Source: Dysidea avara
Lineage: Eukaryota > Porifera > Demospongiae > Dictyoceratida > Dysideidae
Length of the DNA stretch: 64,000 nt
Assembly (NCBI RefSeq): GCF_963678975.1
Contig: NC_089277.1
Span: forward strand, 23,510,672-23,574,671
Direction: 5' to 3'
The notes below the pieces were generated by a model, which was not told where the DNA came from, did no database searches, and was given only the letters and a program-made list of their open reading frames with translations. Shown piece by piece: positions 2,640 to 27,089 of this stretch; positions within the stretch are counted from its first letter, which is position 1; every line of letters begins with the position of its first letter. The translations under genes and the position numbers were made by a program.

Positions 2640-3104
2640 AATGAACTATTCCGCACTGATCGTTCTATTAAATTAAGTGACTGATCTATTAGAATATCGA
2701 TCCTGATTTATTTTTGTATCTATTAGACTCTAAAACTGCATCAAAACGCTGGGATAATTTTCAATTATTTTACCCCATCATTATTCCCAAGCATAATTCC
2801 TGCATCCCTACTTACAGTACAAGTATTTGTTGTTATGCAGACACAATCAAGCATATGGACCAGCACTGTTTTACTCTACCCCACATATATGTCAGCATGT
2901 GTATATTCATACACATATTCAGATCATGATTCTTATGCTGTCATCATGGCTTGCTGTATTTTTTTCAAAGTCTAACTTGTCAATGATTTACATACAAGAA
3001 AGAAAACAACAAGAACAAGAACAAAGAGACAGGAAGCTACATGTTACTATTAATTCTCTTTTGTAGATTTGCATACATATAAATGCATGCTTCTTGATTT
3101 AGCA

Positions 3105-3570
3105 AAAGACGGAGGCTGAAGCAGAAGCTGCAAGGTACATTATTATACTCAGTGTTTCTTTGTTAAAGATATGTCCTATTTTATCAGTTGCAAATACAGC
3201 CCTGTACATATACTGATATTCCTGTACTTATGCGCATGCTTGTAGTTTTTGATTTCTAATATATTTCAGCATCAGCGTGTTCATTATTTAAATCCCTTGG
3301 CACTATCAAAAGGACACAACAACAGCATAGCTGATAATTTACCCTCAAGTAAATGAAAAACATTAACAAAAACATACATACATAAAATTGTTCATCATTT
3401 GATGACAAGGTGCAGTGGTTGATGAAAATCTCTGTGGATTGCTCTTCAAGAATATTGTCAGGTAAGTTGTTCCATTCTCCTGGGAAAGGAACTTTTCTGA
3501 TACATAACAGTGGAGCTGACAGAGATGATAAACTGATGTTGATGAAGCTGTCTGGTAGGATACTGTGTTG
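3105..3570 (-). pseudogene. LINE RT-ORF C-terminal remnant (jockey/CR1-L2 type)
   Basis: The minus-strand reading contains a segment around FPGEWNNLPDNILEEQSTEI. Tails of CR1/L2/jockey RT ORFs commonly end with a FFP..I..WN.LP..V pattern about 40-60 residues before the stop. A cysteine-rich stretch and DADAEIY follow at the end near 3256. Only this tail is present, with no RT motifs. The second copy lies near 23985-24290. Call is by motif only. Confidence 0.5.
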
Positions 3571-3619
3571 GTAAGAAATATGATGGACTAGGTGGTTGTG
3601 TGGAGGGGCGAGCTGATGA

Positions 3620-4160
3620 ACAATTTTGTGGAATTGGCTTGTCACGAAAAATTTGGATCCCCACATTTTGGTTCCCCTGGTCCAAATAATATCGAAATAT
3701 TTGGACCCCCCAGAACAAAATGTTTGATATATATGAACCCCCCTCTGAAACATTTTATCCCCTACAAAATTTATTTTAACACCATTTGCACGTATTCAAA
3801 GGGGTCCAGATATTTCAGCTGAAATAATCGATCCCCCTATCTATATTGTTCCATAGATGATCACCCGGTATTCTTTCCCTACGTATACGTAGTGTATGCA
3901 TATATTCCACCAGCTCAAGGGATTGGGGAACAAATATTTAAGGGGGATCAAATATTTCATATTTGTTTTCCCATGGCCAGTAAGTTTAGCTACACAAGGG
4001 AAGATCAAATTCAATTCAACTGAAAGCTTTGTTACACCCTCATAGCTAATAAGTTTACACAAGGGGAGATCAAATATTTATTTGTTCCCCCACAGTCAAT
4101 AAGCTTACATAACAGGGGGATAAAATATTTAAAGTGAAATATTTGTCCCCCACTAGTAGG
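3620..4160. repeat. dispersed repeat with GGGGTCCAAATATTT motifs
   Basis: Alternating G/C runs and AAATATTT words (for example CGAAATATTTGGACCCCCC, GGGGATCAAATATTT) repeat in both orientations, with the self-complementary core ATTTCAGCTGAAAT. The same family occurs at 24370-24885, about 42096-42250 and 46450-46640. No coding potential. Probably a non-autonomous element whose ends I cannot fix. Confidence 0.55.
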
Positions 4161-4837
4161 GTCAAAAACTGTGATTTCATGACCAACCTCTGGCTAACAA
4201 AGTTTGATGGTTTAATATTGGTACTGGTATTTAAGCAAAATAAGCTCCCATGCCACTTTTTAAAGTCCGGGGAAAGTTCAGTAGAGCCAAAAGTCTAAAA
4301 TGGCTACTAGCTGGCATGGGCAATAATAAAGATAAAAATTCAAATAAAGGTCTTTTTAGACTAATTTGGGGTATAGGAATCCATTTCGGATGTTATTTTT
4401 GTGATTAGATGTTCCTACAACCAAGAAATTTAAGTTTGGTAGCTACCGGAACAAACAACTAGCTAGCTGTTTACAGTGATTAAGCCTTGTTCTTTCAGCT
4501 CCACAGTCTGTAGTACCTTTCTTGACAGTGCACAACCCCCTTGTCAGAATTAGCTGACTAAAACTAATTGACTGTCAATTCTTTGCAATGAAAAGCAATT
4601 AATGGCTGATACCAAAAAATTGTCAACAACATTGGTCGAATTCAAGCTGCTCAGGTGAATAGAAAGCAACTCTCTCAATAGCATGAGGAATATACTTTAG
4701 CACATGTGCGCAGAGATGGGTAAGCTGTACAAGATCTAACATTATGCTTCAACATTGATTTCCATTTGATCCAGTATCACCTGCTCTAAGAACCTTACAT
4801 TTAGCTATTCCAGCTACACCTGAGCTCATTTGAGACT

Positions 4838-5400
4838 TCAAGAAGGCCAAGCGAGATGTGGAGACCCAGCCAATAAAAATTTTCATGGATGAGCGCATCT
4901 ATTCTAAAGAAAAATCTATCCGTGATTGCATGAAACATAATTCGCATCTCACCTTAAAGTTTGCAGGAATTCCATCAAGAAAAGTATCTGAAAAGACACT
5001 AAAAGTAAAACAAGGAGAAATGGATAGCAGGACACTAGAATTCGTGTTGATGTTAGTGGTCTACTGTCTCTACCTGAGCTCATGAAACATCGTATATCTG
5101 AAGAATACCTAACACTGTTTAATCCCAATGGTATTTTCAGAAAGACTCAAAAGAACAAACCTCTGCAGAAGTTAGCATTACAGCCCCTTGATGTCAACTA
5201 CTACACAGCATTAGTGGGCATGATGTAGTGCCTAGTATCACATACGGGTCAAGAGTGATGGGTCTCCATACACTTGGGGTGACTACACCAACAAAATGGG
5301 GTCTGTGATCCTGACACAGCATGTCAGTGTTACCACCATCATCTGCATCAATGATCCCCATGACTATGCTGAGTCCATCAAAGATGCATGAGCGTGACTT
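4838..5400 (+). pseudogene. broken coding region, unknown protein
   Basis: Coding-like sequence runs through three overlapping frames. 4838-5040 reads as a lysine-rich segment around VETQPIKIFMDERIYSKEKS. The reading then continues in another frame around SLPELMKHRISEEYLTLFNP up to a TAG at about 5226, then around SPYTWGDYTNKMGSVILTQH near 5262-5390. The frames join in a sensible order, so this looks like one gene broken by small indels, not an intron set. The same breaks are mostly shared by copy 2 (25548-26110), so decay began before the duplication. I do not recognise the family; a transposon-borne gene is possible. Confidence 0.45.
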
Positions 5401-5491
5401 GTGCATTCAGGGTCAAGGTCCCATACCCATTGTATATTCACTGTTGCTAAACTGCCTACAAAATTTTACTATAAAGTGTATTATGTAGTAG

Positions 5492-5980
5492 AGTTCCAGA
5501 GGTTTCAGTGTTCTAGAGGTTCCAGGGTTCCAGAGGTTCAAGGGTTCCAGGGTTCTAGTGGTTCCAGGGTTCCAGTAGTTCCGGGGTGCCAGAGGTTCCA
5601 GGGTTCTAGATGTTCCAGAGGTTCCAGAGATTCCAGGGTTCTAGAGGTTCCAGATTTCCAGTAGTTCTAGTGGTTCCAGGGTTCCAGAGGTTCCAGGGTT
5701 ATAGTGGCTCCAGGGTTCCACAGGTTCCAGGGTTCTAGGGTTCTAGAGGTTCCACAGTTCAGGGTTCCAGAGGTTCCATGGTTCTAGAGGTTCCAGGGTT
5801 CCAGAGGTTCCAAAGGTTCCAGGGTTCTAGGGTTCTAGAGGTTCCATGGTTCTAGAGGTTCCAGGGTTCCAGAAGTTCCAGGGTTCTGGTGGTTCCAGGA
5901 ATCCTAACGTTCCAGAAGTTCTAGGGTTCCAGAGCTTCCAAGGTTCTAGTGGTTCCAAGGTTCCAGAGGTTTCACGGTCA
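5492..5980 (+). repeat. minisatellite, unit GGTTCCAGR (about 9 bp)
   Basis: About 490 bp of degenerate tandem GGTTCCAGA/GGTTCCAGG units with some 8-bp GGTTCTAG variants. The array stays open in more than one frame (GSRVPEVPGFQ-like translation), which follows from the repeat and is not evidence of a protein. Copy 2 (26196-26426) has only about 230 bp, so the array has changed length since the duplication. Confidence 0.9.
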
Positions 5981-6276
5981 AGTACCCTTCTATTGGCCAA
6001 ATCAATTAAGTGCTATGCCCAATGTTTGGATATTGCCACGTGACTATTGAAAGCAACATGATCAATAGAAACTAGCCTGTGACCTTCTTCATTCAGTAAA
6101 ACAATGGACCATCTTTTTCCCCAAGTTCATAATCTATGCTTTGGCTCACTTTTTACAAAAATAAAAACCACTATCGATCCTGTGAAGTGTCGCTGTATTA
6201 AAGCAGAGGAGATCATACAGTTTCATCAAAGAAATTGAATGATTTCTGAGAATGTTTGGAATGCATTAAGTATATA
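5981..6276. other. no gene seen
   Basis: Unique sequence between the minisatellite and the next MITE, shared with copy 2. Nothing recognised. Confidence 0.4.
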
Positions 6277-6611
6277 CAAGTTATATCCCTCCTACAAGGG
6301 GTAGTCACTGTCAATAGTCCTGTAGAACCATCTGCGACCGGGATCAAAATCAAATCAAGTGATCAAGAGGTAAAATGGCACTGAATCAAGTGATCAAGAT
6401 GTCCTAGAAAGAAATGACTGATCTAGCTCGTGAACAAAACAAGAATTTATAGAAATATGTGCTAAATTATCAAGCAATCAAGGCTGTTTTTAAGGCAAAA
6501 TCAAGTGATCAAGGCATATTTTTGTCAATCAAAAACTTTGACCCTGGTCACAGATGGTTCTACAGGACTATTGGTAGTGACTATCCCTTACTGCTAGGAG
6601 GGATATAACTT
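6277..6611. mobile_element. MITE with about 70-bp inverted repeats
   Basis: The left end AAGTTATATCCCTCCTAC and following sequence to about 6350 is repeated inverted at about 6535-6611 (AATAGTCCTGTAGAACCATC shared within the arms). The middle has several ATCAAGTGATCAAG words. No open frame. The orthologous copy is at 26757-27089. Superfamily not assigned because the target duplication is unclear. Confidence 0.75.
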
Positions 6612-6716
6612 ATATATACTACCTCCATTTCTTGTTAATGCATTCCTGAGCACTGATAGCAGTGCTCATCTACCACTTATACACCTTCTCTTCCCTTTGA
6701 AGTGAGGTGTGAAAGT

Positions 6717-6833
6717 GGTATATATATATCATGGGCACGAGTACTTTGCCTGATATATACGCATAAGCTTGAGGGCTGCAGGCCCAAGGGTGAGTGCGTA
6801 TATACAGGCAAAACACGATTGCCTGTGGTATAA
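6717..6833. repeat. hairpin repeat, about 115 bp
   Basis: Two arms of about 45 bp (GGGCACGAGTACTTTGCCTG near the left, TATACAGGCAAAACACGATT near the right) fold around an AGCTTGAGGGCTGCAGGCCC-type loop. Similar hairpins lie at 8770-8882 and 27195-27315, with short derivatives near 9530-9570 and 28193-28243. Probably a small foldback transposon; a structured RNA is less likely. Confidence 0.7.
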
Positions 6834-6839
6834 CTAATA

Positions 6840-7078
6840 TGTGATCGGATTTGCGAAAAGGAGTCTTCCACACACATCCAATTCTAAGAACTTGAAAGAC
6901 CATAACCTAGGTTGTGAAAAACATACAAAGCTGAAACTTTCTTCATCCATTAACCGATGTTGATACGTATCACTACCTAAATTTCAAACCAATAGCATAT
7001 ACAGATGTGAAGTTATGAGTGACCAAAGTTAGTACATTAGATGTGTGTGGAAGACCCCTTTTCGCAAATCCAGTCACA
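6840..7078. mobile_element. 239-bp MITE with TA target duplication (element A)
   Basis: Ends TGTGATCGGATTTGCGAAAA and the complement of GATTTGCGAAAAGGGG..., with inverted repeats of about 45 bp. TA flanks both sides (6838-6839, 7079-7080). Copy 2 lacks it: sequence there runs AACTAATATTATGC without interruption near 27311. It therefore inserted after the duplication or was lost from copy 2. TA duplication points to the Tc1/mariner group. Confidence 0.85.
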
Positions 7079-7152
7079 TAATATGTTCTATTTTATCATG
7101 CAGACTCGCCTAATTGGCAAACATTTTAGTTGGTATATACCCTTATCTTGTA

Positions 7153-7391
7153 TGTGACCGGATTTGACAAAACCAGGATTCCACACACATCCAATTCTTC
7201 GATTTTAATCACTTGTAACTTGATCACTCAGTATGCTATTGACCTACAAGTTTCACAACATTCTTTTATTGCATTATGTAATAACAGGTAAAAATTTGAA
7301 AGTGATAGCGTACTCCTACATTGAGTTATGGTCCTTCAAAGTCACACATTTGGATGTGTGTGGAAGCCTGATTTTGTCAAATCCGGTCACA
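7153..7391. mobile_element. 239-bp MITE with TA target duplication (element B)
   Basis: Same family and exact length as the element at 6840-7078: ends TGTGACCGGATTTGACAAAA and the complement of TTTTGTCAAATCCGGTCACA, with TA on both sides (7151-7152, 7392-7393). The site is empty in copy 2 (TCTTATATAGAGAACC near 27373-27388). The inner sequence differs from element A, so these are two separate insertions about 75 bp apart. Confidence 0.88.
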
Positions 7392-7654
7392 TATAGAGAA
7401 CCAAGGAAGCTGTGATTGTGAGATGAATTTTGCCAAACAAACTGTGATTGTGCGATTCAATTTTAATACATCACACAGAAGTTTGATTTTACTTTTGCTA
7501 ATATAGCAATTTAAGAGACTAGTGTTAATTGTGTTACTTTAATTACCACATTTACAAAAGCAAACAACAACCACTATTGATGTATTAAAATTGAATCCCA
7601 CAATCACAGCTTGTTTGATAAAATTCAATCCCACAATCACAGCTTGCTTTTTTC

Positions 7655-9076
7655 CCTATATATGAGAAGAGAGATAAGTATAACATCAAAGAAATCTAAA
7701 GATTTCTGGATATAGTGTGCTCTCCTAATAGGTGTACAATGTCTCAAGTTAACAAGATATACGCACTGCTACAGTGCATATATCTCATTAAGCCAGTGCA
7801 TATATCTCGTTAAGGAAATGTTTAACAAGATATGTACCACTCTGCGTGGGCAGTTCAAAGGCACCGCCAGTGCCATAATTTGTATATTGCACTGCTGCAG
7901 ACCGCAGCGAGTGCATTATAACTTATAACGCACTGGTTGTGGTTTTGTAGACCACAACGAGTGCATTATAAGTTATAATGCACCGACCGCAGTGCAATAT
8001 ACAGATATTGCACTGGCTGCGGTTTTGTGCAGCATAGCACAAGTGCCGGTGGCGAAGACCACTACGACACCTCACCTAATAGGTGGAAAGACACTTCACA
8101 GATCACTCGAATTCTTTTATAGCCCGACATGTAAAGGTCGATTGTGGGCCATAACGTCACCAATACGTATAATGTTTACAAGCAGCCAATGGCGATCGAA
8201 AAAGCCAACGCGGGTGGCCACAACTCTAGTCTACATATATATTAACGTACTTATACACCTTACTAGTCTGGTGCCATCTTAGCCCAGATTAAACTGTAGT
8301 CCACTTCGACAATGACTCAATAAAACAAATATATTCTAAATAATACTAACCTTTACGTTCGATTGTGGGAACCAGTTTTGTCATGCCACCAGATTCGAGT
8401 TTAGCCAGTGTCAATAGTAAGAATTAGACTAGTATCGTGTAGTAGTTAGGTTTAGTTTACTTAAACCGTCTATTTAGCTGCTTTTTTTCGCTCGAGAGAA
8501 TCACTATGGTGATTAGTCTGGTGCTTAGTCTATATGGTACACTGGCATGCTGAGCATTACATGATGAGAGTCGAACAGCGAATGCAGGTTAGTGATATAA
8601 CCCATAGCGTACTAGCTTTAAATATCTCAGGTGGCTGCAGTACTGCAGGGGAACATCATCGCAACGTATGGCTTGGTTACCCACAATCGATGTTAGAAAC
8701 CTGGCCTTTATAAGTGTTACAGCTGTCTTGTGAGACTCTTCCCACCTATTAGGTGAGTGGTACATAACAGTTATACAACGTGCACTCGTGCTCTGCCTGT
8801 ATAAACGCACTTGCCTTCGGGCTTGACGGCCCTCAGGCTCGTGCGTTTATATCAGGCAGAGCACTCGTGGCCGTTGTATAACTATATAATATGCACTGGC
8901 ACAAGTGCGTATATCTCATTACACACTGCCTTAATGAGATAAAGCTACAGTGCGTATTTCTCGTTAAGGCAGTGCATATATCTCGTTAATTCGAGACATT
9001 GCACACCTAATAGGAGTGAACACTATATCCAGAAATCATTAGATTTCTTTGATGTTATACTCTCTTATATAGAGAA
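7655..9076. mobile_element. composite foldback element
   Basis: Arms of about 180 bp (7655-7840 and 8890-9076) are inverted repeats and carry iterated GTATATCTCGTTAAGGCAGTG-like units. The interior has a second set of hairpins: 7890-8000 (TGCATTATAAGTTATAATGC type) and the 115-bp hairpin at 8770-8882. Further out, AATCACAGCTTGTTTGGTAA-type blocks near 7420-7650 and 9075-9440 are also inverted. Copy 2 keeps only the right-hand arm (about 27500-27730), so about 1.4 kb is missing there. No transposase. Confidence 0.7.
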
Positions 9077-9440
9077 TCAAGCAAGCTGCGATTGAATTTT
9101 GCCAAACAAGCTGTGATTGTGGGATTCAATTTTAAAAATACATCAACTGTAGTTTGTTTTTTGTACTTTTATAAATGTATTATGATTGTTATTATGATTA
9201 AAGTACCTGGTAAAGGCAGAGATACCAGAAGGCCTTATAGATGTTTACATTAACTGCACGAAGTATATTTGAAAAGTAGGAAATGTAGTAATTAAAGAAA
9301 CATAATTAACACTAGTCTTTAAGATTACTACAGTATATAAGCAAAAGTAAAATCAAACTACTGTTTGATGCATTAAAATTGAAATCCACAATCACAGCTT
9401 GTTTGGTAAAACTCAATCCCACAATCACAGCTTACTTGGT

Positions 9441-10277
9441 TCCCTATATAAGAGAAAGGTATAACAACCAAAAGAGTTTTCCAATTAGGTAAGTCTGCAT
9501 GCTAAAGTAGAACATATTAGTTATACCACGGGCACTTGTGCTTTGCTTGTATATGCACACTTGGTATAACTATTATATACAGGGACTTGTATGTATGGCA
9601 GCAACAGCAGGATGTCTCCATATCTGAGCATGAAGTTTACATTCCAGTACACAGCAGGCCATATTTCAGTACTAGGATAGAATATTTGCACTCTGTAACT
9701 TAACCCATTATTAAATCACTTGCATCCCAAAGCATAATGGCATAAAATGTTATGAGACATCAACTACACTTGTATTCACAGGCCCAGTCGACTATACTAG
9801 TTTCAGACAGTATGTCAGATGGCACATCTACAAGTCCAGAATAAAGCAGATAGTTGAAAATTCATGGCTTTAGGCCTTCAGCTCAGCATCTATTGTAGTG
9901 GAACTGAGTCAGAGGTGGCTCTGTACTGTGTAATGGAATAAAAGATACATAGAATACTATAGTTTTGTAAGTTAATGTATATACTGTATTTCATAATGTG
10001 TCCTGATCTTACCTTGCTTACTTACACCCAACGTATACGTAGCTAGCTAACAGGTCAATATACAGCTATTTCTGTTGTACTTAATCATGACTCTTTGACA
10101 CAATCCTTTCTGGCAAGATTTATGTACATTAAATAATAAATCCATTAATAATAAGAAACTGTATAAGTGTTTGATGCTATAATGATGCTTTCAACATTTT
10201 ACTGTTATTGTATCCCACTATAGGGACTGAAATTACTAAACATTAACTTACTAAGTGTTACTAGGTTGACTTTTTAG
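9441..10277 (+). other. no gene seen; possible intronic DNA
   Basis: Unique sequence conserved in copy 2. A short exon-like island follows CACAG near 9781 but is only about 60 bp before a stop, and I would not call it. It may be intron upstream of the exon at 10278. Confidence 0.35.
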
Positions 10278-10981
10278 GGCTGCTGTCAAGAACACAGAAG
10301 TCATGTTACTGCCCTGGCTGCTGGAAAGACTTTTGGAGCTGCCAAGGAACCTGTCCTTGCCTATAGTGGATCAGGATCTTTTGTTACTGTCATTCTTGGA
10401 CTACATCATGACATCAGACAAAAGATGACTCAAAAGGACAAAAATGTGCCACTAATTATGAGCAAGCTGTGCGTGATACAATCAAAGATGCTACTGTTGA
10501 GGGAATCCTTACTGCTAGATAATTGTTGCATGCAGGTATGTGAGCCTGTATTCTGGATGGTTTTAATGTGCAATTACCTGGTGCTTCCTTCACAGTTGGA
10601 GGATCACAACAAAATGATGAGCTGTACTTTAGTTTCATTGATTATTTAAATCTTTGATTAATTCATTGTTCATTGTCCTTTATTTAATTCATTGATTACT
10701 TCATCCATTAGTTTTTGTAATTTCATTTTACCGTAGCTGTACCTTAGTACCTTAGTTTCAATAATTAACATTAGAGATGATCTCATTTCAACTTGCACCA
10801 GAGATAAACTGAAAATTAATCAAGTGGTGCCATCATACATTACTTAATTATTATCTTTTACACATATCCACAGCCAAATCCTTATCAGATGTACTACTCT
10901 GTACCTGGTAATGATTTAAAATTTGACAATGTCATTAATGAGATGGATAGTCACCAAGTCAACTCATTTTACCCACACTAA
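10278..10981 (+). CDS. two 3'-terminal exons, unrecognised protein (copy 1)
   Basis: Exon 10278-10535 follows a pyrimidine-rich acceptor (GACTTTTTAG) and ends at a consensus donor CAG|GTATGT. It is 258 nt, open in one frame, and encodes a segment around HVTALAAGKTFGAAKEPVLA. The next exon, 10874-10981, follows TATCCACAG. It starts in the matching phase (0 to 0), encodes a segment around PNPYQMYYSVPGNDLKFD, and ends in TAA. The 338-nt intron is reasonable. Both exons, all splice sites and the stop are kept in the second copy, although several differences between copies change the protein. Upstream exons were not found, so the 5' end is unknown and I do not recognise the family. It could be a duplicated gene fragment. 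Confidence 0.5.
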
Positions 10982-11844
10982 TAATGTCATTGTTAACATT
11001 TATAAGTTGTTGTACAAATGAAAACATGCTACTTATAGTGCAATATGCTATTTTTGAAATAGTATCACTGACAGGAAGGAAATCATGCATGTAATATACA
11101 TGTTTATGTAGTGTGTATGAAGTTCGTATGTGTGTGTGTGTGTATGTGTGTGTGTGTGCATGCTTGCACAGTGTGTACATAGTGCGTGTATGTACAGTAT
11201 GGTGTGCAGTGTGTGTAATGCTGACCAGGGCAGTATGAACGCTGCCCAGAAGGATTTTTCAACACTGAATAATACACACCTGAGTGTAGTGCACAGGTTG
11301 CTTAGTAATAGACACAGCCATTTGTATAGTAGCCAAACACACTGCTCTGTGTACATACAGCTTTATTTCACAATTTTGTACTACCATTATCACTGATGAC
11401 CACTTAGCTACATATTATATGGTCTCGACCATTTATATAGTGAAGCACCAAACTTGCTTTGTTGTAATGTACTAGTAGAACTCTCACTAATAACTTTTAA
11501 TGTGCTCCTATCAATTATTTCAGACTTGAATATCGGTATCAGATCGACATCAAATGGAAACAGCAGTGGATACAGATATATATTTATTTATTTAGAAATA
11601 AATGCTCATGTGCATCAGACGATGCATTGACTTGCATTCTTCACCATTAAAATGTTGTTATTAGTGCTTAAATATACTGTCAGCTACAACTGTATGTACC
11701 ACTGGCACTACAGACAAATTAAATTGTTCCTTTATAATCACATTTCTCATAAAATTAACAGGAATCTATTATGTTCATTGGCTTAAAAATGTTATCCAAT
11801 ATCAGTTATTGAAATATGTATCTGCAAAATCTCATATCAGTGCA
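10982..11844. other. no gene seen; contains (TG)n
   Basis: Shared with copy 2 (29672-30559). A TG/GTGTGCATG microsatellite lies at about 11130-11162. A short open island after CAATTATTTCAG near 11523 is conserved in copy 2 but too short to call. Confidence 0.4.
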
Positions 11845-11877
11845 ACACTACTACTACCACTACCACTACTACTACTG

Positions 11878-11929
<52 letters not shown>
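11845..11929. repeat. (TAC)n microsatellite, 3' flank of LINE 1
   Basis: Imperfect then perfect TAC units. The left flank (ATATCAGTGCAACACTACTA) is identical in copy 2 at about 30551, so this tract predates the duplication. On the minus strand it is a GTA tract directly at the 3' end of the LINE that follows. Confidence 0.92.
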
Positions 11930-14127
11930 GGATTTAATGAAATTCTATATGTACAACACATTGTACAGACAATAGTAATGATGTAACAAGCCAAAGCCTA
12001 AGCTACATCATACACAAATTAACATTCCTAAGAACGTCAACTGTTCCAAGAATGGCTGCCTTCTGCAAGGTGGCAAAAACTACTTCATTATAGGCTGGAA
12101 TCTTCTTCAGATGGCTCTTCTGATTCTTTGAAACTATTCCAGAGGCTCCAAAAACAACTGGAACAACCATTACCGGCTGACAATAAGTCCTTGACATCTC
12201 CCCTGCTAACCGCTGGTACTTGGTTACCTTCTCATTCTCTTTGTCAAGAACATTAATGTCAGCCGGACATGACACTTCCACAAGCAAAATCTTCTCCGGA
12301 GCCTCCTTCATAAAAACAACAATATCTGGGCGATTGCTCGCAACCCGGGACACGGTGGTCATTCCAAAGTCCCACAATATCTTGATTGTGGCATTCTCTA
12401 CCACAGGCAGTGGCTGATGAGAATACCAACTGTTGGCAGATGTACGAATGCCAAAAGTACGACATAAATGCCAGTGAATCACACGGGCCACCAAGTTGTG
12501 ACGATGGAGATAGCTTGTTGGTGCCAGCATCGGGCATCCTGCCATTAAGTGCTGAATGGTCTCCTCGTGACTGCCACACAAACGACACATTAGAGTTGGT
12601 ATAGAGACATGCATTATTTTTGCCTCATACACTCTAGTCCTTATAACCTGGTCCTGGATGGCAAAAATAGTGCTTTCTGATTCACCATGCAAAAACTAGC
12701 CAAGCCAGCGAAAGCTCCTTGATACATCTATTGGGTTGGAGCAACACCAGTTAGCAAACTTACCATGCAGTGGTTTGCCCCGCAGAATATCCCAGCGACA
12801 CAACCTCTGGAGATCACAAACTAAGTTTTTCAATTCATCAGCTGTAGCTTGAGCTAGGTCCCCATCTATAGAGAGTGCAGCAACATAAGTATCCGCCCTT
12901 GAGCAAACTGACTTGCGTGGTGGCAATGATGTGTCCAACAAATAGCACATTCTAACCAAAGCATCATCAGATGTACGTAAATGATGTGCCAGCATAATAA
13001 CACGACGACGATAGAGATCCTCAATGTTTGATAAACCTCTACCACCAAAATGATGGGGGAGGTAGAGGCGCTCTACTGCAGAGCGAGGATGTAAACTATT
13101 AGATGCCACCATTGTCTTACGCACCAAAATGTAAAATTGAGAAATCTCAGCTGTGGTCCAGTCAACAATTCCAAAGCCGTACGACAATAGCGGCACACAA
13201 AAAGAGTTAGTAGCCTGCACCTTAAAATGTGCATACAGAAAACTTGTCCATATAAACTTAAGCCTGCTTTTGAACTTACCAAGTACAACATCCCTACAGA
13301 GTGCGTGAGCAATGCCACCCCCCTCAGGGAAGCCCAAATAGCGATACAGACCAGCAATCTCCAACTCAGGAATCTCATCACTACTCAGTACAGACAGTGG
13401 GCTGGTTTGAACAATCTTGCCCCTCTTGATGGTCAATTTAGCACACTTTGAGATTCCAAAACTCATTTGAATGGCATCTGAAAATCTCTGGACTGTATCC
13501 ACCAGCTTGTAGAGACTATCATCATTTCGAGCGAAAAGTTTTAAATCGTCCATATACAACAAATGAGTTAGAGACACATCAGAACTCACCTTATAGCCAT
13601 CAAGTCGGTCCAATAAATAGCTCAGCGGGTTCAAAGCAAGACAAAACAACAGTGGGCTTAATGTGTCACCCTGGAAAATGCCACACTTGACTGACACAGT
13701 AGACAATTGTACAGGCGTAGTATGTGGCAGCTGAAGGAATAAAGTTGTATGCCACAGAGGTAATAACTGTTGTAGACAAGTGATTAAAGCTTGTGGGAAG
13801 TTAAAAAGATGTAAGCATTCGATAATCCAATTGTGTGGCACTGAGTCGAATGCTTTTTTATAGTCAATCCACGCCACTGACAAGGAACGATTCTTACTGT
13901 GTACTTGGTGCCAGATACGATTAGTGAGTAGCAGGTGGTCAGTACATCCATACTGACCCTTAGCACAGCCATTCTGTGCAGGATGGATGAGTTGATTGGT
14001 TGCACAGTGGTCAAACATCAAGGAAGTTAAACATCCAGTCCATATCTTATAAACAATATTCAAGCAAGTGATAGGGCGATAATTCTTTGGGTTAGTCGGA
14101 TCATCAGTTTTAGGTATCAATATAGTT
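11930..14127 (-). mobile_element. 5'-truncated RLE-encoding LINE in a (TAC)n tract (LINE 1)
   Basis: The element reads on the minus strand from 14127 to 11930. Both ends join TAC/GTA repeats directly: (CTA)n at 14128-14200 on its 5' side, (TAC)n at 11845-11929 on its 3' side. It carries the RT domain from just before its first motif to the end of the ORF, then a C-terminal CCHC and restriction-like endonuclease, then a 73-bp 3' UTR. An RT followed by CCHC and RLE is the layout of the R2/R4/NeSL group of site-specific LINEs. The 5' end (N-terminal zinc fingers) is missing. Confidence 0.88.
12003..14127 (-). pseudogene. reverse transcriptase plus restriction-like endonuclease ORF, one nonsense codon
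   Basis: One frame with a single in-frame TAG at 12696-12698. RT motifs are visible in order: ILIPKTDDPTNPKNYRPIT, AWIDYKKAFDSVPH (first catalytic Asp), GIFQGDTLSPLLF, YMDDLKLFA (catalytic pair) and LYRYLGF. After the TAG comes a CRLCGSHEETIQHLMAGC zinc knuckle (C-x2-C-x7-H-x4-C). The RLE region then has RPDIVVF and, further on, ILLVEVSCPADI and a K..KYQRL segment, a PD-(D/E)XK-like arrangement as in R2. The ORF continues upstream only as poly-Ser from the microsatellite, which is not original protein. The product would nick target DNA and prime reverse transcription there. Confidence 0.88.

Positions 14128-14200
<73 letters not shown>
14128..14200. repeat. (CTA)n microsatellite between LINE 1 and LINE 2
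   Basis: 73 bp of pure CTA/TAC repeat that is both the 5' junction of LINE 1 and the 3' junction of the LINE 2 fragment. Confidence 0.95.
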
Positions 14201-14202
<2 letters not shown>

Positions 14203-14427
14203 TTTTCATTGAACAATAATGACACACATGTACAATAGTACAGAATAATATTGTTAATACAGGCATACACTTAAGTATAACCAAAGTTAATAGATGTTAA
14301 GATATTAACAGCCCCAAGAATAGCTGCTTTTTGGAGGTTATTAAACAATGTTTCGTTATAGTCAGGTATTCGCTTCAAATGAGTTTGTTGGTTAGCTGAT
14401 ACCACACCAGAATGGCCAATCACAACT
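14201..14427 (-). mobile_element. 3' end of a second RLE LINE (LINE 2)
   Basis: Minus-strand reading ends around LKRIPDYNETLFNNLQKAAI then stops at 14271, closely matching the C-terminus of LINE 1 (LKKIPAYNEVVFATLQKAAI). A 70-bp 3' UTR ends in AAAAAA joined to GTAGTAG. The 5' end is cut within the last about 50 codons, again at a TAC tract (14428-14468). The sequence differs clearly from LINE 1, so it is a different element, not a duplicate. Confidence 0.85.
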
Positions 14428-14428
14428 G

Positions 14429-14468
<40 letters not shown>

Positions 14469-14495
14469 ACACACACACACACACACACACACATG
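14428..14495. repeat. (CTA)n followed by (AC)n
   Basis: TAC units to 14468, then about 25 bp of AC repeat. The AC flank is shared in degenerate form with copy 2 at 31905-31960 and marks the right border of the ancestral microsatellite. Confidence 0.9.
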
Positions 14496-14829
14496 CACAT
14501 GTAAACGTACACGTGTACACACACACATACGTACCATATGTACGCACACACAGCAGTGTTCTTAACACAGATATACTAGCAATTCAAATTAACTTCTAAA
14601 TTGATTCAATGTAGCATTCTTGCAACTTACCATTCTTGCAACTTACCAATTACAATAGTTATTTGCATGTATATGTCTGATCAGTAAGAGCAGTTGTTAC
14701 AAAATGTAATGTTTCTGCAGCGTAAATTACTATGGTATTAACAAAACAATTCTAATGGAAATAGATGGTCTAGCTAATGACAGTATTTGCAGTAACAAAT
14801 AAACCTCACACACTAAACATACAGTATGT

Positions 14830-16215
14830 AATAACTAATTGTGGTGGTTTACACATTAGCCAAGTTCTTAGACTACAAGCTGTTATCTGAGTCTGGGATT
14901 TGTATATCTGCATTCTAATGTCGACACCTTGTGTTCCTACAAATTGAGGCTGCAGCTGTCATGTGTAATCTTTTTGCAGGATTATTAATTGAAGACAAAT
15001 TATTGGTCATGTAATTTAATTGCTACCAAGTCATGCATCTTATGACAGTGTAGCTACATTTTGAAATATTTGACTGGGTCTGGGAAAACTGGTCTTGTTT
15101 CCCATGATAACAGATTTGATTTTTCACCAAGAACATAAAGCTACATGAATAATTTCACTATCAAAGTTAACTAGACTTGAGTTGTCTACTTTTGTTGGCT
15201 GCTTTTCTCAAGCACAGTGCATGGCGATCTTTACAAGTGGTGTGGGCCCTAATGGAGCTCTGGCCAGCCTGTGGATGGTTATATATGTGGCTGTACAGCT
15301 CATTGGTATTGAATAATAGACCTATGATGTAAATGTCCTTTAATTTTAGCCAGTTTTGATACTTGAATGGCCCATACCTTGGCCTAATTGATCCCTATGC
15401 CTTCCTCTTTAATTTTTAAGGTTGTGATTTACACATTAGCCAGGCTCTTAGATTACAAGCTGCCATCTGAGTCTGAAAGTTTTATATCTGCATTTATCAA
15501 ATTTTTAATGTCAACATTTTGTGTCCGTACAAGGCTGTCACATATAGTTTCCTTGCAGGATTATTAATTAAAGACATATTGTCTCTAATTTACTGTGTTC
15601 TTTAATTAATTGCTACCAAGTTATGCATCTTATTACAGTGTAGCTACATTTTGAAATATGTGACTGGGTCTGGGAAAACTGGTCTTATCACCCATGACAG
15701 CAGATTTGATTTTTCACCAAGAATGTAAAGCTACATGACCGAATAATTTCATTATCAAAGTTACGACTTGTGTAGTCTGCTTTTGCTGGCTGCTTCTCTC
15801 AAGCACAGTGGCAATCGGTGTGGGGCCCTCTAGACAGCCTGTGGATGGCTGTATATGTGGGGTTTTCAGCTCTGTGGTGTTAATGTGTTGTAAATGTCCT
15901 TGTATTTTAGGCAGTTATGAGACCTGAATGGCCCTTAACTTAGCCTAATTCATCCTTATGCCTTCCTCTTTGATTTTTAAAAACTAATTGTTGTGGTTTA
16001 CACATTAGCCAAGTTCTTAGATAACAAGCTGCCATCTCAGTCTGGGTTTTTTATATCTGCATTCATCAGATTTTTAATGTCAAGATTTTGTGTCTCTACA
16101 ATTGATGCTGTCACGTATAGTCTTCTTGTAGGATTATTATTTAAAGACACTAATTTACTGTGTCCTTTAATTAATTGCTACCAAGTTATGCATCTTATTA
16201 CAGTGTACATTTTGA
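14830..16215 (+). repeat. three tandem units of about 570 bp with an exon-like segment
   Basis: Units start near 14830, 15418 and 15982 with GTGGTTTACACATTAGCCAA-like sequence. Each holds a TTTAATTTTTAAG or similar acceptor-like stretch, a segment translating around YTLAKFLDNKLPSQSGFFIS, and a downstream block GACTGGGTCTGGGAAAACTG. The coding-like segment is open in the third unit (15993-16268) and in the second unit of copy 2 (32792-33013) but broken in others. This may be an exon amplified in tandem and then decaying, or an element carrying it. Family not recognised. Confidence 0.6.
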
Positions 16216-16478
16216 AATATATGCATTATATAAGAGTACATGCATACGTACACATACATAGCACATAGCACACATAACTATATACTGTGTAATAATACAA
16301 ACCAGTTACATGTGTGTACAGTATAATTATAGTGAATATGTCAGTTTTATGTTGCACAGTTTTCATCTGGCATGTGAGTTACTTGGTACACACTACACAG
16401 TGGGTTCTTTATCATTAAAGGAATGAAGTAGCTGCAGTATTGTAGAACAATTAACTTACCATATCAGTATCTGCTCCA
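16216..16478. other. no gene seen
   Basis: ACATACATAGCACATAGCAC-like simple sequence, shared with copy 2 at 40690-40975. Confidence 0.4.
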
Positions 16479-17066
16479 CTATACCTGGTACTTGTTCAAG
16501 ACTTCTGTCCACACTGACTTGTATACTGTGAGCCTGCTTTGTTTCCACAATACCCAGTAGCCATAGTACTCAGTATTCAATCCTGGAGGACACTCATAAT
16601 GAGAAGTGATCATTACCTTGTTAGTGCATCCAAAAGCCTGGCAGAATTCACAAAGCAAAGTACAGTCACGAGCATAGTCAATCAGGCTACCAGAATTTAT
16701 TTGGTACTCTGCTCCATATAGCCTAGCATATTCTTGATACCCTGGCTGGGCCTTTAGGTATTGAGGATTATATAGCAGTGGATCAACTGCAGCTCCATAA
16801 TGTTCAAACCATGATCCAGCTACAACTCCAGAGTAGATGGTATCTGCTCCATAGGGACAAGTAGAATTACCCCATCTAACATAGGTGACTACACCAGGTT
16901 GACAGTTATACTGTTTGTTATCAGCAACAACAGGTGGTTTAGTAGGCTTTTATGTTGTCTGTCTAGTGGTCCTGATATTTGGTCAAACCATGATCTTTGT
17001 CTTCTTTGATTCCAATTGTTGTAGTAGGTGAGAGACTAGTGGAGAATTGATATCTTCATCAGTGAC
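16479..17066 (-). pseudogene. short-chain collagen C4-like C-terminal domain, decayed (copy 1)
   Basis: Minus strand. After an acceptor (CTTCTTCACAG, 17067-17068) the frame reads around DEDINSPLVSHLLQQLESKK and a Thr/Pro-rich linker. It continues into a cysteine-rich domain with VVTYVRWGNSTCPYGAD, LYGAEYQ, CTLLCEFCQAFGC and ECPPGLNTEYYGYW, ending in TAG at 16479. The YVRWG..TCP and LEYYGY-type motifs and Cys spacing match the C-terminal non-collagenous domain of sponge/mollusc short-chain collagen C4-like (spongin) proteins, which are secreted matrix proteins. An in-frame TGA in the linker is present here, where copy 2 also has TGA, and a TAA near 16950 is unique to this copy. No Gly-X-Y exons are seen upstream, so this is a gene fragment. 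Confidence 0.72.
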
Positions 17067-18184
17067 CTGTGAAGAAGATAACAGCAAAATCATTGAAGTA
17101 ATATAATGGCAATTTTATTTTGATGAACCTGAAATGCGAGATGTTTCATAGCATTATAATATTATGTAGAACATTGGTTTACCAACTCAAGTGTAGCTAC
17201 TTGATGGCAAGCATTGGACGACAGCACTCACTGTCTGGCGGACAGCTATTTGACTCACTCAAGTAATGTAGTAGTAGCAGAGTACATGCAGTACTGTATG
17301 AGCATGATGTGTGTATTGCCAACTTTTGTAGAATAGCTCATATACTATATAGATTCTTCAATCTCATATGTCACATGGACTTTACACAGCAGAGCACATC
17401 TTTTATTGGAATGTTAATTGTTTTGATAGAAACTTGTTAACATTTTAAAGTGCTGTAGCTACTACATCTAATGCATTTGTGCATGTATGTAGTATTTTTC
17501 ACAGATTACGTATTTGCAAGAGACACACGAGCAGGACAATCTTTCTATAGCAGTCCATGCATATAATTATTTAGAATTCTCTACATCCTCAAAATATTTA
17601 GAATAAATGCTTTTAACTCTGCAGACAGCACATTGCAATAAATAGCAATGTACCAAATTAATAAAATACAAAAGTAGCAGCTATATGATACCAGGAGTGC
17701 ATCAGACATGGTGTCTTGTGTTGATGACAAAATCATTCTTCTGTCATGCCATTTGCCTTCATATAGGTTCGGGTACCAGTAATGTGATGCATTGAGCTTG
17801 CGTCTCTATCAAACAGTATTGCTTAGTAGGGTTCCCCACTAAAGTGACACATGCCGATAAAACTGCCACATCTAAAAGTCATCATAGAAAATTATACATG
17901 GAAAACTCACTTTCATGGAATAGTCCATTCAATGTCAAATACAGTGTTAAAAGCAAGAAAACACTTACTGGCACCAGCATATGTATAGAAGTTTTTTTTA
18001 TGGCTAAACCTGTATTTTGGTCAGCCTGCCTCACTACCTGATCACAGTTGCAAGGCTAGAGGCCAAACAAAGCAGTGCATAGCCACCATTTTATGCCACA
18101 GCAACAAACTCATGGGTGAGATGTGCCTTTGTGGTTCTGATGGATGTCTACCTTCTATGCTTTGCTATTCCTTTTATCTTCAAT
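17067..18184. other. no gene seen
   Basis: To 17523 the sequence is the end of duplication copy 1; after that it is unique. Short open frames (for example 17844-18041) have no recognisable features. No collagen Gly-X-Y repeats, which would be expected upstream of the collagen-like fragment, are present. Confidence 0.45.
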
Positions 18185-21495: not shown

Positions 21496-22233
21496 TCAGT
21501 GTGATGAATCCTGAACAGTAATTCCACCCTGAATATTGTAAGCATAAATCAAGCTTCCACGTATATATGACGTCAATGTTTTCCAATCAGACAACCGAGG
21601 AAAACAATGTTCCTGACCTTTCAATGGTTCTGGATAGTGGCCCCCAGTGTATCCTTCAACTGTGATCGGAATTTCAAAGTCAGCATCTTCTTCCAGCCAT
21701 TTGAATTCAAGCCTCACGACTACAGAAGACTTTGGTTTCAATGTAATGCTTACGTTATCTTTCATTGAGTAAGTATCCGAAGTTGAGGATGTAGAGCCAA
21801 CGGAATTTTCAATTCCAAACTTGAAGGTATACTCTGCTCCAATGCCCAATTCAGCAGAACCGATGCTAATTTTCTGTTCAAATGAAATCGAAGATGTTTC
21901 AGTGACTGAAACACTAGCCGACTTTTCATGAGTTGCTTCTAACGTCAATGAAAATGTTGCTGACTGGTCCGAGTCATTGGTAAGCGCCTTTTCTTCTGCA
22001 ATCCTGCTACGGACTCGAGAAGAGGAAGAATTTTTAGTAACACGAACTTTTCCTGGGATGTTATAGCAGTAATAACCATACTTCTCGCAAATTCCTCCAT
22101 TAAGGTAAACAGCGTGTGGAGGTCGACCTAGATGTTCTTTGTACAACTTTATAAGGTCACGTCTTGACATTCCATTTTTTGTTAAATCATCCCATGTGGT
22201 AAGATTGGCATCTTTCTTCTTTTCAGTAGCCAT
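21496..22233 (-). CDS. aerolysin-like pore-forming protein, intronless
   Basis: An intact 245-residue ORF. The ATG has a good Kozak context (A at -3, G at +4). There is no signal peptide; the N-terminus is MATEKKKDAN. Residues about 1-65 form a small mixed domain (LYKEHLGRPPHAVYLNGG). From about 85 to 190 the sequence alternates Ser/Thr with hydrophobic residues, as in VSVTETSSISFEQKI and DTYSMKDNVSITLK. This is the long beta-strand plus amphipathic insertion hairpin typical of the aerolysin/ETX-MTX2/natterin fold. The final part has GYTGGHYPEPLKGQEHC. Aerolysin-fold proteins oligomerise and make beta-barrel pores; in animals they serve in defence, venom or endolysosomal roles. The target here cannot be told. 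It lies alone between mobile elements, and lack of introns fits a retrocopy or a gene family with a history of lateral transfer. Confidence 0.72.
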   Translation of the reverse strand: MATEKKKDANLTTWDDLTKNGMSRRDLIKLYKEHLGRPPHAVYLNGGICEKYGYYCYNIPGKVRVTKNSSSSRVRSRIAEEKALTNDSDQSATFSLTLEATHEKSASVSVTETSSISFEQKISIGSAELGIGAEYTFKFGIENSVGSTSSTSDTYSMKDNVSITLKPKSSVVVRLEFKWLEEDADFEIPITVEGYTGGHYPEPLKGQEHCFPRLSDWKTLTSYIRGSLIYAYNIQGGITVQDSSH

Positions 22234-22989
22234 TTTACTGCCACAGCAGATCTCCGGTTGGATTGAATTACTGAGGTGCAGAACTGTTATATAGTCTACG
22301 GTACAGCAGAACCTTCCTACAGTACAAATTAGCTAGCATCTGCAGCAACGCCAGAACTTTTTTCAATAACAACAGCAGTTCGCTTGAGTCATCGTGTTTA
22401 TAAGAGTTGTTTTCAGCGCGTGATCTACAGTGTAGGTTACGTAATCCTTGCAAACCCACGCACCCGCCATTTTGGTGTACAAACGTAATGCAAGACACAG
22501 CAACGTGTGGCGATGGTTCCAGTACAACGATTATGATCAAGATATTTATTTAAAGACTTTACAGTGTAAAAGGCAGTGGCAGACAAAAGGTTGTACAATG
22601 GAATAAACTAACTAGCTATATTACAGTGGCATTTCACCTAAAGTGGCCAGAAAAAAATCTACTTCAACAACTCTGTTTGTTTATGGGTGAATAATGCTCG
22701 AATGATTTTAAGGTATTGGGCTCTGCAAGGTAGTGATGATGACTTTCCCCCTTTCCCTGTAGTTTTCTTTTTGTTGCTCCCCTTTTCCAGTAGTTGTATT
22801 TTATTCGTTGTGATTATATAGTTTGTTTAGTAGATTTTAATTGTAGCATTTGTTGTCATGTGTATTTTTTATCTGTAAACTGTCTTTAAAAAAATATATA
22901 GTATTATTTTTAAAAAAAATTAAAAAACGATAATATTATGTAAAAAAATACACTGCAATAATTCCTGTCCAAAAACTATACGTTACTTA
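22234..22989. other. 5' flank of the aerolysin-like gene; no other gene seen
   Basis: Region upstream of the minus-strand gene. An A/T-rich run (ATATATAGTATTATTTTTAA) lies at 22890-22960. I cannot assign a promoter. Confidence 0.4.
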
Positions 22990-23217: not shown

Positions 23218-23349
23218 TTATACTTACACTTAACCTAAAATTACAATTAAAGTAAAATTATGACAACTTAACTTAAAAGTTACAATAACATAATGGTGGG
23301 GTCTATTCTACAGAAAGGAACGGAACGGAATGATAGACTAAACTACGGA
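23218..23349. repeat. short dispersed repeat GGTGGGGTCTATTCTACRGAA
   Basis: GTGGGGTCTATTCTACAGAA with GGAACGGAACGGAATGATRG follows at 23289-23340 and recurs at 62305-62370; a degenerate form is at about 62884. It abuts the left border of duplication copy 2. Confidence 0.55.
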
Positions 23350-23984
23350 ATGAACTATTCCGCGCTGATCGTTCTATTAGAGTAAGTGACTGATCTATTA
23401 GAATATCTCAATCATGATTTATTTTTGTACCTATTAGACTCTAAAACTGCATCAAAATTCTGGGATAATTCTCAATTATTTTACCTTATCATTATTCCCA
23501 GGCATAATTCCTGCATCCCTACTTACAGTACAGGTAATTGTTGTTATGCAGACACAGTCAAGTGTATGGACCAGCACTGTTTTACTCTACCCCACATATC
23601 TCAGCATGTGTATATTCATACACATATTAAGATCATGATTCTTGTGCTGTCATCATGGCTTGCTGTATTTTCTCAAAGTCTAACTTGTCAATGATTTACA
23701 TACAAGAAAGAAAATGTTGAGAACAAGAACAAAGAGACAGGGAGCTACAGGTTACTATTAATTCACTTTTGTAGATTTGCGTATATATAAATGCATGCTT
23801 CTTGATGTAGCAAAAGATGGAGGCTGAAGCAGAAGCTGCAAGATACATTATTATACTCAGTGTTTCTTTGTTAAAGATATGTCCTATTTTATTAGTTGCA
23901 AATACAGCCTGGCCTGTACATATACCAATATTCCTGTACTTATGTGCATGCTTGTAGTTTTTGATTTGTAATATATTCCAGCAT

Positions 23985-24290
23985 CAGCGTGTTCGTTGTT
24001 TTAATCCCTTAGCATTATCAAAAGGACACAACAACAGCATAGCTGATAATTTACCCTCAAGTAAATGAAAAACATTAACAAAAACATGCATGCATAAAGC
24101 TGTTTATCATTAATTTAAATGACAAGGTGCAGTGGTTGATGAAAATCTCTGTGGATTGCTCTTTAAGAATATTGTCAGGTAAGGTGTTCTTTTCTCCTGG
24201 GAAAGGAACGTTTCTGATACATAACAGTGGAGCTGACAAGACTGAGATGATAAACTGATGTTGATGAAGTTGTCTGGTAGGATACTGTGT
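23985..24290 (-). pseudogene. LINE RT-ORF tail remnant (copy 2 of 3105-3570)
   Basis: Same sequence as the copy-1 remnant with small indels; the FPGE.N.LPDNIL motif is recognisable at about 24165-24215. Confidence 0.45.
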
Positions 24291-24369
24291 ATGTTGGTAA
24301 GAAATATGATGGACTAGGTAGTTGTATGGAGGGGTGAGCTGATGAACGATTTTGTGGAATTGGCTTGTC

Positions 24370-24885
24370 ACGAAAAATTTGGTCCCCACATTTTGGTTCC
24401 CCTGGTCCAATTAATATCGAAATATTTGGACCCCCAGAACAAAATGTTTGATATATTTGAACCCCCTCTGAAATATTTTATCCCCTACAAAATTTATTTT
24501 AACACCATTTGCACGTATTCAAAGGGGGTCCAGATATTTCAGCTGAAATAATCGATCCCCCTATCAATATTGTTCCATAGATGATCACCTAGTATTCTTT
24601 ACCTACGTATACAGTACATGCATATGGTGTATGCATATATTCCACCAGCTCAAGGGATTGGGGAACAAATATTTAAGGGGGATCATATTTGTTTTTCCAT
24701 GGCCAATAAGTTTAGCTACACAAGGGAAGATCAAATTCAATTCAACTGAAGGCTTTGTTACACTCTCATAGCTAATAAGTTTACACAAGGGGAGATCAAA
24801 TATTTATTTGTTCCCCCACAGTCAGTAAGCTTACATAACAGGGGGATAAAATATTTAAAGTGAAATTTTTTTTCCCTCTAGTAGG
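24370..24885. repeat. GGGGTCCAAATATTT dispersed repeat (copy 2)
   Basis: Orthologous to 3620-4160 within the duplication, with small deletions. Confidence 0.55.
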
Positions 24886-25547
24886 GTCAAAAACTGTGAT
24901 TTTTCATGACCAACCTCTGGCTAACAAAGTTTGATAGTTTAATATGGTACTGGTATTTAAGCAAAATGAGCTCCCATGCCACTTTTTAAAGTCCGGGGAA
25001 AGTTCAGTAGAGCCAAAAGTCTAAAATGGCTACTAGCTGGCATGCGCAATGATAAAAATTTTAATAAAGGTCTTTTTAGACTAATTTGGGGTATAGGAAT
25101 CCATTTCTGATGTTATTTTTGCGATTGGATATTCCTACAACCAAGAAATTTAAGTTTGGTAGTTACCAGAACAAACAACTAGCTAGCCGTTTACAGTAAT
25201 GAAGCCTTGTTCTTTCAGCTCCACAGTCTGTAGTACCTTTCGTGACAGTGCACACCCCCTTGACAGAATTAGCTAACTAAATCTAATTGATTATCAATTC
25301 TTTGCAATGAAAAGCAATTAATGGCTGATACCAAAAAATTGTCAACAACACTGGTCAAATTCAAGCTACTCAGGTGAATAGATAGCAACTCTCTCAAAAG
25401 CATGAGGAATATACTTTAGCACATATGCGCAGAGATGGGCAAGCTGTACAAGATCTAACATTATGCTTCAACACTGCTTTCCATTTGATCCAGTATCACC
25501 TGCTCTAAGAACCTTACAATTAGCTATTCCAGCTACACCTGAGCTCA

Positions 25548-26110
25548 TTTGAGACTTCAAGAAGGCCAAGCGAGATGGGGAGACCCAGCCAATAAAAATT
25601 TTCATGGATGAGCACATCTATTCTAAAGAAAATCCATCCATGATCACATGAAACATAATTCGCATCTCACCTTAAATTTGCAGGAATTCCATCAAGAAAA
25701 GTCTCTGAAAAGATACTAAAAGTAAAACAAGGAGAAATGGATAGCAGGGCACTAGCATCCGTGTTAATGTTAGTGGTCTACTGTCTCTACCTGAGCTCAT
25801 GAAACATCGTATATCTGAAGAATACCTAACACTTTTTAATCCCTATGGTATTTTCAGAAAGACTCAAAAGGACATACTGCTGCAGAAGTTAGCATTACAG
25901 CCCCTTGATGTCAACTACTACACAGCATTAGTGGACATGATGTAGTGCCATTAACCTATGGGTCAAGAGTGATGGGTCTCCATACACTTGGGGTGACTAC
26001 ACCAACAAAATAGGGTCTGTGATCCTGGCACAGCATGTCAGTGTTACCACCATCATCTGCAACAATGATCCCCATGACTATGCTGAGTCCATCAAAGATG
26101 CATGAGCGTG
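25548..26110 (+). pseudogene. broken coding region, unknown protein (copy 2)
   Basis: Same as 4838-5400, with further small deletions (for example in the IHDH region near 25630). The conserved islands ISEEYLTLFNPYGIFRKTQK and SPYTWGDYTNKIGSVILAQH-like are still readable in separate frames. Confidence 0.42.
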
Positions 26111-26195
26111 ACTTGTGCATTCAGGGTCAAGGTCCCATACCCATTGTATATTCACTGTTGCTAAACTGCCTACTATAAAGTGTATTATGTAGTAG

Positions 26196-26426
26196 AGTTC
26201 CAGAGGTTCCAGGGTTCTAGAGGTTCCAGGGTTCCAGAGGTTCCAGGGTTCTAGATGTTCCTGAGATTCCAGGGTTCCAGAGGTTCCAGGGTTCTAGAGG
26301 TTCCAGAGGTTCCAGGGTTCCAGAGGTTCAAAGTTCTAGTGGTTCCAGGGTTCCACAGGTTCCAGGGCTCCAGAGGTTCGGGCCAGGGTTCTAGTGGTTC
26401 CAGGGTTCCAGAGGTTTCACGGTCAA
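26196..26426 (+). repeat. minisatellite GGTTCCAGR (copy 2)
   Basis: About 230 bp of the array seen at 5492-5980, roughly half the length. Confidence 0.9.
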
Positions 26427-26756
26427 GTACCCTTCTAATGGCCAAGTACCCTTCTAATGGCCAAATCAATTAAGCGCTATGCCCAGTGTCTGGACATCGC
26501 TAAGTGACTATTGAATGCAACATGATCAATATAAACTAACCTGTGACCTTCTTCATTCAGTAAAACAACAAACTATCTTCTTCGCCAAGTCCATGATCTA
26601 TGCTTTGGCTTACTTTTTACAAAACTAAAACCCACTATCGATCTTGTTAAGTGTCACTATATTAAAGCAGAGGAGATCATACAGTTTCATCAAAGAAATC
26701 GAATGATTTCTGAGAATGCTTGGAATGCATTAATGAGAATAGGACGTAGTATATAC

Positions 26757-27089
26757 AAGTCATATCCCTCCTACAAGGGGTAGTCACTATCAATAGTCCT
26801 GTAGAACCATCTGTGACCATGATCAAAGTTAATTCAAGCGATCAAGAGGTAAAACAGCACTGAATCAAGTGATCAAGATGTCCTAGAAAGTAATTACTGA
26901 TCTAGCTCACGAACAAAACGAGAATTGCAGCAATATATGCTAAATTATCAAGCAATCAAGGCTATTTTTAAGGCAAAGTCAAGCGATCAAGGCATATTTT
27001 CGTCGATCAAAAACTTTGATCCTGGCCACAGATGGTTCTACAGGATTATTGGTGGTGACTATCACTTGCTCCTAGGAGGGATATAACTT
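26757..27089. mobile_element. MITE with inverted repeats (copy 2 of 6277-6611)
   Basis: Same ends and interior as the copy-1 element, so insertion predates the duplication. Confidence 0.72.

Follow-up and report, generated by a model that had tools for sequence, protein, structure and literature searches.

A restriction-like endonuclease LINE clade that very probably targets (GTA)n/(TAC)n microsatellites in the sponge Dysidea avara

The window, a stretch of 64,000 nucleotides of Dysidea avara DNA (C6:23510672-23574671), contains two places (11847-14468 and 30563-31904) where six (TAC)n arrays alternate with four LINE 3′ ends (Table 1), which raises the question whether these elements seek the repeat, make it themselves or merely survive in it. 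The copies examined lie in arrays, with the sense strand being the GTA strand and with GTA on the 3′ side and usually on the 5′ side. This pattern spans several subfamilies and many truncation points, and repeated hits build LINE-(GTA)n-LINE-(GTA)n trains. On sequence grounds, the elements very probably form a multi-subfamily clade of LINEs with a restriction-like endonuclease (RLE; R2 group), with the (GTA)n/(TAC)n microsatellite as the target for integration.

Elements and arrays in the window

Table 1. Arrays, LINEs and the duplication unit in the window (positions in the window; a slash marks a junction)
Feature	Positions	Strand	Remarks
Segmental duplication unit with the first cluster	2640-17522		Copy (23349-33438 + 40500-42101) contains the second cluster
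(TAC)n array, left side interrupted	11847-11929	+	3′ flank of LINE1
LINE1, RLE LINE, 5′-truncated	11930-14127	-	Reverse transcriptase, CCHC, RLE and 3′ UTR; end AAATCC/GTAG
In-frame stop codon TAG of LINE1	12696-12698	-
(TAC)n array	14128-14201	+	Separates LINE1 from LINE2
LINE2, 5′-truncated	14201-14427	-	C-terminal end and 3′ UTR; A6 end; P0017-like subfamily
(TAC)n array, then (AC)n	14428-14468	+	5′ flank of LINE2
(TAC)n array	30563-30637	+	Paralogue of 11847-11929, interruptions identical
LINE3, 5′-truncated	30637-31095	-	RLE domain and 3′ UTR; A4 end; separate subfamily
(TAC)n array	31096-31132	+	Between LINE3 and LINE4 positions
LINE4, 127-nt 3′ end	31132-31258	-	Related to LINE2 (78.6% over 112 nt), other truncation point
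(TAC)n array, near-pure	31259-31904	+	646 bp

All four LINEs are on the minus strand with GTA on their sense strand, and the arrays on both of their sides were found where an earlier sequence-only reading had placed them. The direct GTA junctions that it described at the 3′ ends are likewise present, in LINE2, LINE3 and LINE4 through runs of six, four and four A, respectively, and in LINE1 through the end that is usual for its subfamily. Chance would not be expected to supply such arrays, as the (TAC)5 15-mer had a mean of 0.00 across 100 shuffles. BLAST recovered no family copies in the 64-kb window beyond the four LINEs, which fall into three groups, namely LINE1, LINE3 (47% protein identity to LINE1 over 123 aa), and LINE2 with LINE4, both of which resemble P0017 and are reduced to the last residues plus the 3′ UTR.

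LINE1 (2198 nt) contains a reverse transcriptase (RVT_1, E 6.8e-27), a CCHC knuckle and an endonuclease in one frame with a single TAG break, and by sequence the best PDB match for the family is the R2 protein (1.4e-26). The knuckle reads CX2CX8HX4C and is followed by RPD...E, while LINE3 retains the RLE part only, so that the RPD-type endonuclease ascribed to both elements from the letters alone is indeed encoded by them. In the relative P0004, the knuckle (C514-X2-C517-X8-H526-X4-C531) also precedes the endonuclease, and the motif CX2-3CX7-8HX4C is given for RLE LINEs in the accessible part of PMC5678591. RPD...E is conserved in the PD-(D/E)XK restriction-like endonuclease region of the relatives, and the modelled C-terminus (pLDDT 90.7), which matches the R2 endonuclease region structurally, has a predicted fold like that of the R2 endonuclease. 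Three features of the R2 group, namely LINE-type reverse transcriptase, CCHC knuckle and C-terminal PD-(D/E)XK RLE, are thus present, and the YMDDLKLF-type motif of the family is one which we take to resemble that of R4 elements. A single ORF with DNA-binding motifs at its N-terminus also belongs to the R2-group features; each relative of about 1200 aa is predicted as one protein, but in six of these long relatives no N-terminal DNA-binding Pfam domain was named. In viral and prokaryote contig collections no relatives were confirmed and there were no pattern matches.

The two clusters share an origin. BLAST of the window against itself aligned 2640-17522 piecewise with 23349-33438 and 40500-42101, at 87-97% identity; the left flank, including the array with the same series of interruptions, is 97.3% identical between the duplicates and the right flank 93.9%, whereas LINE2 and LINE4 have only the identity given in Table 1 and are truncated at different points. 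A shared interrupted left array combined with differing LINEs implies that the array is older than the duplication and that the LINEs were inserted later and separately. As both clusters lie in copies of one duplication, one ancestral array was hit separately, and counting the clusters as two independent target loci is ruled out. The duplication is large and tandem and contains minisatellites as well as the TAC locus, and its second copy is interrupted by 33.4-40.5 kb, which contains transposon frames.

Several other features were observed in the window. A 1010-aa open frame (34140-37172), perhaps a hAT transposase, combines DUF4371 with a hAT dimerisation region, and a 302-aa transposase frame (38856-39764) with DDE_Tnp_4 is presumably Harbinger-like. 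A Pao/BEL-type LTR retrotransposon (Peptidase_A17, RVT_1, integrase, DUF1759) occupies 56557-61767, the self-complementary stretches 43426-43733, 52276-52896 and 63632-63956 (90-96%) are long palindromes and perhaps small DNA transposons, and a 278-aa frame at 21496-22332 weakly matches the aerolysin family, below the threshold (E 0.0018).

Flanks of copies across the genome

The genome from which the window comes (550.8 Mb, 108 contigs) contains at least 57 matches to the LINE1 DNA, and 34 of the matches listed reach the 3′ end. Among these 34, the 3′ flank is GTA in all 18 that were read; GTA stands at all 11 junctions of one set, which overlaps with these 18 and includes 80%-identical subfamily copies and one short copy outside the listed LINE1 matches. 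On the 5′ side, three or more GTA units lie within 40 bp of 14 of 17 further ends among the 34, counting L098 and L103, where some 16-17 nt separate the array from the matched LINE. Less clear cases are L104, with a short GTAG run directly behind another LINE's end, L108, with a GCA array whose end reads GTAGTAG, and L109, with an array only at greater distance. L113 and L114 duplicate one another and have like flanks, and C5 has duplicated clusters. For the part of the copies covered, the prediction that both flanks would place the family in GTA repeats in one orientation is therefore borne out, with GTA at the 3′ end and in most cases also at the 5′ end. GTA is not confined to a 3′ tail, as it also stands 5′ of the copies, long ones included.

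Two observations concern the neighbourhood of these ends. LINE clusters seem to be block-duplicated between C3:23.38 Mb and C4:32.81 Mb and between C5:32.75 and 33.19 Mb (equal query ranges; L113/L114 flanks). GCA arrays adjoin or merge with GTA arrays at the LINE ends of L105, L108 and L042, and could represent mutated GTA or another repeat that the elements accept.

The 3′-UTR motif TCTGTAC..GTACAT, which is conserved in all four window LINEs, served as a probe that does not depend on the repeat. A conserved folded 3′ hairpin was rejected, as the folding of the four ends did not stand out from that of their shuffles (z 0.02, 0.29, 0.16 and -1.14). The close form of the motif occurs four times in 265 kb (window plus sample), only at the window LINEs, and the genome has 311 matches to the motif version against 99 for a reversed control. 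The probe was read at 96 of the 311 places (among 100 listed; the four left out lie close to C1:14.38-14.40 Mb, three of them, and at C1:30.32 Mb), which contain 97 occurrences: 47 enter a run of four or more GTA units, the other 50 lack such a run, and none enters TAC. Of the 50, about eight, read by eye, resemble family ends whose GTA units are few or decayed; L043 has the motif string of LINE4 with neither family sequence nor GTA beyond, and the remaining ones are other sequences, including the repeated TCTGTACTTGATAGTAG family.

Nineteen loci, two of them in the window, were mapped after orientation and cutting at GTA arrays; they were picked by family matches, favouring clusters, so the figures describe copies and not random loci. 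At least three GTA units lie within 75 nt of 48 of the 51 family 3′ ends, and the other three have fewer than three clean units. Together with the roughly eight decayed-looking motif ends, these weak ends indicate that very short targets or decay occur. An array on the left is present at 38 of the 51 ends and lacking within the stretch at 13. LINE homology begins within 40 nt of the left array in 36 of the 38 segments (31/33 as the independent figure, since five sat in the reference set), and in the other two a spacer of 41 or 83 nt lies between array and LINE. The spacer of about 83 nt, an unassigned sequence, is seen in L097 (sense 4754-5040), before a LINE1-type 3′ end. No (TAC)4 was found on the sense strand of the 19 loci. 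L093 exemplifies a train, with six family ends in 5.1 kb whose best matches are four different relatives.

Long copies reach the repeat as well. One LINE segment each in L095 (3366 bp) and L097 (4003 bp) starts with TCACGTGAC within one base of the array; L095 also has a third TCACGTGAT, which follows a short array. This common start is probably the true 5′ end. The frame of the long L097 copy is broken, and its pieces that begin with ATG are 671 and 206 aa long. Palindromic TCACGTGA was observed directly behind the GTA array, at the apparent full-length 5′ end of three copies, at 213 and 3596 in L095 and at 391 in L097 (sense coordinates).

Predicted proteins offer a proxy for the upstream side, as (GTA)n translates to Val or Ser and the opposite strand to Tyr, Thr or Leu. 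Among 126 different short ORFs from two protein searches (20/20 matches; the best 120 of 187 listed), Val/Ser runs precede the LINE part in six, touching the matched LINE residues in P0143, P0144, P0196, P0224 and P0250 and separated from them by about 15 residues in P0227; P0129 and P0243 are weaker cases, and P0168, with an internal Ser run, was left out of the count. Judged from the amino acids, these runs probably represent a GTA array read as protein. No Tyr/Thr/Leu run of six occurs among the 126 short ORFs, and 120 longer relatives lack Val or Ser runs of five residues. In a tree of the RLE region (34 rows, several forks weak), the six ORFs fall into four or five branches, with P0143 and P0144 beside LINE3, P0224 beside LINE1, P0196 beside P0134, P0250 beside P0009, and P0227 unplaced, so the GTA habit seems to be that of the clade and not of one subfamily. 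At residues 132-151 of P0235, the frame passes the LINE end into decayed Ser/Gly, as a 3′ GTA/GTG array would read.

Background sequence (20 × 10 kb from C1 plus 1 kb, 201 kb in total) contains no five-unit (TAC) array and no family copy; two places weakly match other reverse transcriptases (22-32%). As arrays are absent from this sample, the attachment of the family to them is not due to array abundance.

Entry into the arrays and alternative explanations

The RLE would nick the TAC strand mostly in one phase (TAC^TAC). The TAC 3′ end released in this way would prime cDNA synthesis from the 3′ UTR (target-primed reverse transcription, TPRT), and the cDNA end would be joined to the other side of the array, often truncated and sometimes at 1-4 nt of microhomology. 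Of 61 3′ junctions, 30 end in a non-A base and thus reveal the phase: 24 begin GTAG (21 of them of the single type AATCC/GTAG), five AGTAG and one TAGTA. At the 5′ junctions, the overlap with the array averages 2.0 nt, compared with 0.70 in random joins (P ~7e-4; 9/21 scorable), a small set that gives only a hint of microhomology. As the array is kept on both sides, the locus remains a target for the next insertion. Piling up in this way might spare genes and might benefit host or element.

The predominance of one phase (24/30) would also suit a variant of the GTA-target explanation that has the same outcome and another step, in which a GTA-ended read-through transcript anneals in register to any free TAC 3′ end and recognition by the endonuclease is unneeded. 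The transcript of an array-embedded copy would carry GTA 3′ of its UTR, but phase-specific nicking predicts the data equally, and in RLE LINEs like R2 it is the protein that selects the site; this variant, whose odds overlap with those of the GTA-target reading, is given roughly one chance in four by our judgement. Still more doubtful is an extension of it, a self-maintaining landing pad, in which GTA read-through transcripts would pair with the nicked TAC strand and insert in register, each insertion carrying or regrowing the array, so that the element would spread its own target and form ordered multi-subfamily trains at few loci.

That the element makes the GTA itself, as a 3′ tail produced by reverse transcriptase slippage comparable to that of the microsatellite-seeding RTE elements in Lepidoptera, is highly improbable. 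GTA does stand directly behind the 3′ end in most family copies seen, and an RTE element with terminal TGA trinucleotide repeats is recorded in the accessible part of PMC2887409, but truncated copies have GTA on the 5′ side too, six proteins have the repeat 5′ of the LINE, and in the window the left array and its interruptions are common to both duplicates while the LINEs differ. A repeat present only as a 3′ tail is contradicted by these 5′ arrays and by an array older than the insertions. Least probable of all is random insertion that survived only in harmless simple repeats, or a cassette spread via recombination between TAC arrays, for clusters do undergo segmental duplication (window; L113/L114), but selection would not set orientation (no opposite case in the motif probe and maps), arrays are rare (no five-unit array in 201 kb), and truncation points vary among copies, which rules out cassette copying as the main source of copies.

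Relation to known elements and significance

RLE LINEs comprise five clades, among which HERO includes some microsatellite-specific and many non-specific families, and the NeSL-related Togen families of fish are (TG)n-specific (PMC4640811, accessible part). Dong of Bombyx mori (R4 clade) is found in TAA repeats (PMC3774820), and DongAg and DongBg are located in microsatellite repeats (PMC3636483), as far as the accessible text of these papers goes. Compared by description, the GTA clade agrees with Dong in being an RLE LINE in a microsatellite and differs in the target, GTA/TAC instead of TAA; it likewise agrees with Togen in microsatellite specificity, whereas the Togen repeat is a dinucleotide, and with those HERO families that target microsatellites, while many HERO families are non-specific. 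In microsatellite-tail RTE elements, the repeat is 3′ only, whereas the GTA clade has it 5′ as well and in arrays older than the insertions. An HDV-like ribozyme is reported for Dong; the long copies L025, L027, L095 and L097 have no Rfam match at E 0.1 or better, and the 64-kb window has none at gathering scores. With R2, the GTA clade shares the reverse transcriptase, the CX2-3CX7-8HX4C knuckle and a predicted PD-(D/E)XK RLE of the same fold (PMC5678591, accessible part), but R2 occupies one conserved 28S rDNA site and the GTA clade a repeat at many loci.

In the open-licence literature, searched mostly as titles and abstracts and with Repbase outside the search, no mention of GTA/TAC as a LINE target was found. 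Microsatellite-targeting RLE LINEs are thus a known kind, while the GTA target and the trains appear to be new as far as searched. The trains also call for caution in annotation, as predicted proteins with Val/Ser runs can be fusions of LINE and repeat. RLE LINEs are studied both as gene-avoiding parasites and as enzymes that write DNA at specific sites. Several subfamilies that share one genome, one target and, in the copies seen, a fixed orientation and mostly one phase form a natural series on how the target is read, by protein or by RNA pairing, and the GTA clade also serves the question of how targets shift among TAA, TG and GTA.
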